The position numbers were made by a program, and so were the translations under genes. A stretch of 64,000 nucleotides of DNA, from NCBI RefSeq assembly GCF_020097815.1, contig NZ_CP083663.1, positions 744,001 through 808,000 of the forward strand, given 5' to 3'. Every line of letters starts with the position of its first letter. Within the stretch, counting starts at the first letter, position 1. Below are positions 61,044 to 61,415 of this stretch, one piece after another. The DNA is from Haloprofundus salinisoli (GTDB lineage Archaea; Halobacteriota; Halobacteria; Halobacteriales; Haloferacaceae). Below the pieces are notes generated by a model that saw nothing but the letters and a program-made list of their open reading frames with translations, was not told the origin of the DNA and ran no database searches.

Positions 61044-61185
61044 GCGCCGAGAGAGATCTGAACCACGGTCGTTCCGCTCGCGTTCGTTTGCTCCACTCCC
61101 TAACTCGAATCTCTCGACCGACGTTTACCTCGTTGAGCCTCGCAGCGCGATGAAACGCGCCGCTCGGAGTGCAACGATCCGAAAA
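61044..61185. repeat. Tandem unit 1 carrying a copy of the tRNA-Ser 3' end
   Basis: This 142 bp unit begins GCGCCGAGAGAGATCTGAAC, a degenerate copy of the tRNA-Ser 3' end (the tRNA reads GCGCCGAGGGAGAGATTTG there on the plus strand). It ends with a block GCGCGATGAAACGCGCCGCT followed by CGAAAA, shared with unit 2. No gene is present. Confidence 0.75.
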
Positions 61186-61329
61186 GCGCCGAGCGAGAGA
61201 TCTGAACTACGCGGACTTCGCTCCCGCCGGTCGCTCGTCCTCTCGTTCAAATCTCTCGTCGGGCGGGTACACAGAACCGAGCCTCGCGGCGCGATGAAAC
61301 GCGCCGCTCGGAGTGTGAGTCTCTGAAAA
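61186..61329. repeat. Tandem unit 2 carrying a copy of the tRNA-Ser 3' end
   Basis: This 144 bp unit begins with a 22-base copy of the tRNA-Ser 3' end (two differences). It has an inverted repeat CGAGAGATCTGAAC / GTTCAAATCTCTCG (61194-61207, 61245-61258, one mismatch), resembling T-arm sequence in both directions, and a perfect 8 bp hairpin GCGGCGCG-ATGAAA-CGCGCCGC at 61286-61307. It directly abuts the tRNA gene. Confidence 0.75.
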
Positions 61330-61330
61330 G

Positions 61331-61415
61331 CGCCGAGGGAGAGATTTGAACTCCCGAGTCCGAACGGACAGTAGATTTCGAATCTACCGCCTTGGCCAGG
61401 CTAGGCTACCTCGGC
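61331..61415 (-). tRNA. tRNA-Ser (anticodon CGA)
   Basis: On the minus strand, the acceptor stem is GCCGAGG/CCTCGGC. The anticodon arm reads GTAGA-TTCGAAA-TCTAC with anticodon CGA. The long variable arm TGTCCGTTCGGACTCG marks a class II tRNA, and the T-arm is GGGAG-TTCAAAT-CTCTC. The discriminator is G and CCA is not encoded. Length is 85 nt with no intron. It reads UCG codons. Confidence 0.96.

Follow-up and report, generated by a model that had tools for sequence, protein, structure and literature searches.

In the window, i.e. the whole analysed stretch of 64,000 nucleotides from a contig of Haloprofundus salinisoli, ARAGORN and Rfam place a tRNA-Ser(CGA) gene on the minus strand (61330/61331–61415), and directly downstream of it, in tRNA sense, lie two tandem units with a spacing of 142/144 bp. 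Read in the same sense, each unit is composed of a linker with a T-run and a hairpin, an inverted T-arm, a hairpin core and a copy of the tRNA 3' end (Table 1). Repeat comparison of the locus revealed a repeat of 74 nt, present once in each unit (61135 and 61279; 88% alike), along with further repeat pairs at 61051/61195 and 61105/61247. In the proximal unit, the mirror of the T-arm extends imperfectly towards the acceptor, to about 61265. Rfam reported the tRNA as the sole family at gathering score at this locus. Of the genes beside the window units, four identifiable ones were tested and proved not to be integrases. A sequence-only reading of this DNA had described two tandem units, each with a copy of the tRNA 3' end, and a GCGCGATGAAACGCGCC hairpin block common to both, which agrees with the anatomy found here. 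It had also assigned the inverted T-arm-like pair to the second unit alone, which had to be corrected, as such arms are present at 61245–61257 and at about 61104–61116.

Table 1. Features of the tRNA-Ser(CGA) locus in tRNA sense, with positions in the window.
Feature	Position	Strand	Sequence or remark
tRNA-Ser(CGA) gene	61331..61415	-	ARAGORN, Rfam
T0, putative template block	61331..61351	-	tRNA nt 53-73, T-loop to mature 3' end
Linker of tRNA-proximal cassette	61258..61330	-	T-run at its start
Strong linker hairpin, proximal cassette	61278..61311	-	CCGAGC-GGCGCG-TTTCAT-CGCGCC-...-GCTCGG
Inverted T-arm, proximal cassette	61245..61257	-	GAGAGATTTGAAC
Hairpin core, proximal cassette, type B	61208..61244	-	GAGAGGACGAGCGACC..GGGAGCGAAGTCCGCGTA
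T1, copy of tRNA nt 53-73	61187..61207	-	19/21 positions match
Linker of distal cassette	61117..61186	-	T-run at its start
Linker hairpin, distal cassette	61134..61167	-	Repeat of the proximal one
Inverted T-arm, distal cassette	61104..61116	-	GAGAGATTCGAG
Hairpin core, distal cassette, type A	61064..61103	-	AGGGAGTGGAGC..GCGGAACGACCGTG
T2, copy of tRNA 3' end	61045..61063	-	Two bases shorter

A tRNA-linked family in the class Halobacteria

A DNA search with the window region retrieved similar stretches behind many other tRNAs, both in the same genome and in relatives, and a systematic survey of tRNA flanks showed that tRNAs for Gly, Arg, Lys, Val, Phe, Ser, Met and Leu, among others, are followed by copies of their own 3' end. 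With an own-tail copy defined by at least 17 of 21 matching positions of tRNA nt 53–73, such copies were detected behind 13 of the 48 tRNAs (27%) in the window's genome, compared with 15 of 2262 trials (0.7%) in which foreign tRNA tails reached the threshold on the same regions, leading to the conclusion that the copies in this genome are not due to chance. Two congeners carry own-tail copies behind 40% and 34% of their tRNAs. Across the three genomes foreign tails passed in 0.7–1.4% of trials, and the own tail was the best or tied match in 45 of 46 copies.

Across 75 units, the copy begins at G53 with an identity to its own tRNA of about 1.0, keeps about 0.9 as far as N73 and falls to 0.3–0.5 right outside this block. 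The inverted arm mirrors nt 54–62 and follows its own tRNA at the variable position 57, with pairing to the own T-arm, R57 included, reaching 0.98 compared with 0.74 for the tails of other units. Beyond nt 54–62 the mirroring is weak yet significant (p = 4e-5), extending to the acceptor in a few units. The copies behind tRNA-Glu(TTC) in the genus of G067 (L432/L433/L435) deviate from their own tRNA at three positions, which shows that homogenisation with the tRNA is incomplete.

For a wider census, paired inverted and direct T-arms were sought with the pattern GGATTYGAA N26-56 GTTCRAATCC, using the reversed pattern as a control. Matches were obtained in 184 of 194 genomes of the class Halobacteria, representing 63 of 65 genera, with zero matches for the control in the same genomes. 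Elsewhere in the phylum, the pattern matched only 2 of about 312 genomes. A stricter, proline-type pattern searched against 84,980 species gave 14 matches, all in haloarchaea. Inspection of 30 fetched loci revealed that nearly all units lie 17–195 nt behind a tRNA and match the acceptor of that tRNA; the exceptions comprised a coding-sequence match, a displaced unit, tRNA 3' relics and an intron-containing tRNA miscalled by the finder. No genuine units were found away from tRNAs or tRNA 3' fragments. One true unit on a viral contig (L264, IMGVR_UViG_3300000875_000004) stands behind a tRNA-Glu and has a TTCG apical loop; the other viral-contig matches were mostly bacterial tRNA-Ser(CGA) genes, whose anticodon arm and T-arm together imitate the pattern, and were discarded. 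We also observed a second class of units that mirror and copy the acceptor part of the tRNA alone and contain an antisense-type core, namely at tRNA-Ala (L401, L398) and, in the window's own genome, at Arg and Gly tRNAs (L047, L058, L079, L045).

The cores recur as families across units and frequently contain the apical element GA-N-C-loop-G-N'-GA, with a covarying N-N' pair (R-Y), which is many times denser behind tRNAs than elsewhere. Among 98 cores, the motif lies on the tRNA-sense strand in 55 and on the antisense strand in 2. Rfam assigned no family at gathering score to 16 unit-bearing loci except the tRNA and one unrelated leader. In the open-access literature we found no description of such units; an earlier notice elsewhere is possible. 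By these genome comparisons, the units form a class-wide, tRNA-linked family in Halobacteria for which the open-access literature yielded no described counterpart.

Differences between relatives

Which tRNAs carry units differs among congeners, and the layout varies between relatives. The window's genome (G000) has no unit behind Leu-CAA, and the same flank sits behind a copy in the congeners G001 and G004. At Phe and at Ser-CGA, G004 holds one further unit on the tRNA side of the segment that stands first in G001 or in the window. In the empty-site comparisons with two congeners, the differences amount to single units only. In the Ser-TGA flank (L164, L196), two segments occur in opposite order in G001 and G004. 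Automatic calling of 41 congener comparisons was mixed, in part because old copies score below the threshold: 9 were cleanly of the empty-site type, including a few that tandem tRNAs explain trivially, 11 were of the reverse type, and the rest were mixed or undecided.

Within arrays, the copies are graded by position: in 51 arrays with at least two copies, the first (proximal) copy is the better match to the tRNA in 38, whereas the last one is in 7 (p = 1e-5). Some arrays behind one tRNA hold different cores, and similar cassettes are found behind different isotypes (Phe/Asp, 93% over 62; Ser/Pro, 87% over 124; Gly/Glu, 82% over 125), several of these alignments beginning at the first bases after N73.

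Possible origins of the units

Tentatively, and with somewhat less than even confidence, we favour the reading that the window units belong to a family of non-coding hairpin cassettes arranged in polar tandem arrays, individual cassettes being acquired and lost with nt 53–73 as the boundary. Judged by comparison between loci and genomes, the block boundaries are exact, the copies are specific to their own tRNA and the distal copies decay; empty sites and extra tRNA-proximal units occur in congeners, and cassettes are common to several isotypes. A cassette would consist of linker, inverted tRNA tail and hairpin core, with tRNA nt 53–73 on both sides serving as recombination or target site. New cassettes would enter next to the tRNA and be lost as whole units, every gain leaving the tRNA intact and depositing a further copy of its 3' end, by a dedicated recombination step that probably proceeds via the hairpin of the tRNA-sense strand. 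Against this reading stands that target duplication accounts for the direct copy but not for an inverted arm that matches the tRNA, that loss between 21-nt direct repeats together with interspecies exchange could yield much of the pattern without an enzyme, that no cargo genes were seen, that neither Cas1 nor a Y1 transposase occurs in the window's genome, and that just 9 of the 41 congener comparisons are cleanly of the empty-site type. The stronger proposition, that haloarchaea have an undescribed system for inserting small, non-coding cassettes with a hairpin at tRNA 3' ends, with nt 53–73 of the target tRNA copied at every insertion and the tRNA as fixed array head, is possible but doubtful.

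The single-strand bias of the cores and the pairing of the inverted arm with its own T-arm would also be expected if the units were maintained as RNA. The tRNA transcript would then read through into the unit, the 3' strand of the hairpin mimicking T-arm and acceptor, and the trailer would either be set free as a small RNA, with RNase Z as one candidate nuclease, or act in tRNA 3' processing or termination, with selection on RNA pairing maintaining inverted arm and core. Folded as RNA, the proximal window hairpin reaches z = −3.9 (0 of 200 shuffles as good), linker hairpins have a median z of −1.9 versus 0.0 in the control, and T-rich trailers follow the tRNA in 70% and the copy in 52% of cases, all of which speak for such an RNA, as do two 3' ends mapped downstream of tRNA-Pro in H. 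volcanii (PMC7237163), where the units are putative. Several RNA-seq-verified sRNAs of H. mediterranei (HM16_V, HM27_V, HM43_V and others) adjoin tRNA genes (PMC5852579) and may be such units. However, the distal window hairpin folds no better than shuffles (z = −0.4), unit presence is erratic among congeners, and Ser-CGA lacks a unit in all 29 species sampled in the genus of G016. The core loops were often GNA triloops closed by C-G in a first, DNA-like count; a wider count was less clear, so that loop statistics were dropped as proof of a DNA form and the GNA preference alone was retained as suggestive. C(GNA)G triloops belong to a class of extraordinarily stable DNA mini-hairpins according to Yoshizawa 1997 and Hirao 1994, as cited in PMC6479982, and the preference hints, suggestively only, at a single-stranded DNA form of the cassettes rather than at RNA. 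DNA folding energies showed no significant excess. Overall, we regard a functional trailer RNA as less probable than the cassette reading, but as a serious rival to it.

A process requiring neither a dedicated enzyme nor a function was weighed as well, in which replication template switching at the near-palindromic T-arm would yield inverted and direct copies of the tRNA end, while ordinary homologous recombination and gene conversion, acting between copies, loci and species, would account for their deletion, homogenisation and exchange. Repeat-mediated loss is documented in haloarchaea and is reported to be frequent between direct repeats in Haloquadratum (PMC3119063); conversion by the nearest copy would likewise produce the polarity between first and last copies, and a general process would also give a unit class mirroring the acceptor alone. 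Such a process does not readily account, however, for core families that recur throughout a class with covarying stems on a single strand, for the restriction to Halobacteria or for the sharp block end at N73, and we consider it, too, less probable than the cassette reading, though likewise a serious rival. Far less probable, and mostly refuted, is a stack of attachment-site scars left by conventional integrative elements. In archaea, tRNA 3' parts are common integrase targets, with the T stem-loop as one known target region (PMC8371274), and the block from T-loop to N73 resembles this type. Units of about 100–145 bp with an inverted arm and a hairpin core nevertheless have no parallel in integrase scars, and similar cassettes occur at many isotypes, each with a 21-nt block from G53. 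A genuine 5.5-kb integrative element with a tyrosine integrase (PF00589) resides in tRNA-Gly(TCC) of the same genome (C1, about 373.2–378.8 kb; L394); between the anticodon loop and N73 its block spans 44 bp, while the tRNA fragment displaced by the element retains its own hairpin unit, from which we concluded that conventional integration differs from, and is independent of, the units. The sequence-only reading had left the origin as an alternative between such scars, now unsupported, and a repeat family copying a tRNA end, which came close to the picture obtained, with units across the class, in the window's own genome as in its relatives, each matching the tRNA it follows.

Irrespective of origin, a repeat family apparently templated by each tRNA's own 3' end is present in nearly all Halobacteria and almost confined to that class. 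If the cassettes move, a recombination system would be anchored on genes that rank among the cell's most conserved, and if the units are RNAs, they would constitute a class-wide small RNA family linked to tRNAs; either reading is directly testable in Haloferax.

Comparison with known systems

The T-loop attachment sites of tRNA-targeting tyrosine integrases (Williams classes, cited in PMC8371274) resemble the present arrangement in that the identity block begins within the tRNA and reaches its 3' end, as G53–N73 does, and in that the tRNA is left intact, whereas the haloarchaeal units are non-coding stretches of about 100–145 bp with inverted arm and core at many isotypes. Short non-coding palindromic repeats are likewise known from haloarchaea as PATEs, MITEs and small mobile repeats, which are dispersed, the small mobile repeats and PATEs being reported without target duplication (PMC3119063), whereas the units described here are bound to tRNA 3' ends. 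A Y1 (HUH) transposase, as in elements of the IS200/IS605 type (PATE/REP-like), was rejected as required agent, because the enzyme was found in 65 of 97 genomes of the class and not in the window's genome.

The nearest known precedent is the set of 178-bp tandem repeats of E. coli tyrT with the rtT RNA, where every unit behind the tRNA gene repeats the 3' end of that tRNA. Those repeats are known from one locus in one bacterial group and are not known to carry an inverted arm, whereas the haloarchaeal units combine such an arm with a hairpin and occur behind many tRNAs per genome throughout the class. The corresponding Rfam family (RtT) gave no match at gathering score in the window locus or in the 16 unit-bearing loci. 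CRISPR adaptation and casposon insertion at tRNA 3' ends share with the proposed cassettes a proximal insertion that duplicates a fixed block. Cas1, however, had no match in G000–G003 and, among 97 Halobacteria genomes, was present in 39 and absent from 58, so that a casposon or CRISPR machinery was rejected as required agent. In integrons, a polar cassette array is built from cassettes each ending in a hairpin (attC) on one strand. The logic is alike in the polar array, the one-strand hairpin, the paired arms at the boundary and the variable middle, and unlike in that no cargo genes were seen in the haloarchaeal cassettes and that their arms are tRNA T-arms. Should the proposed insertion system prove true, tRNA-headed cassette arrays would follow a logic similar to that of integrons or CRISPR arrays.
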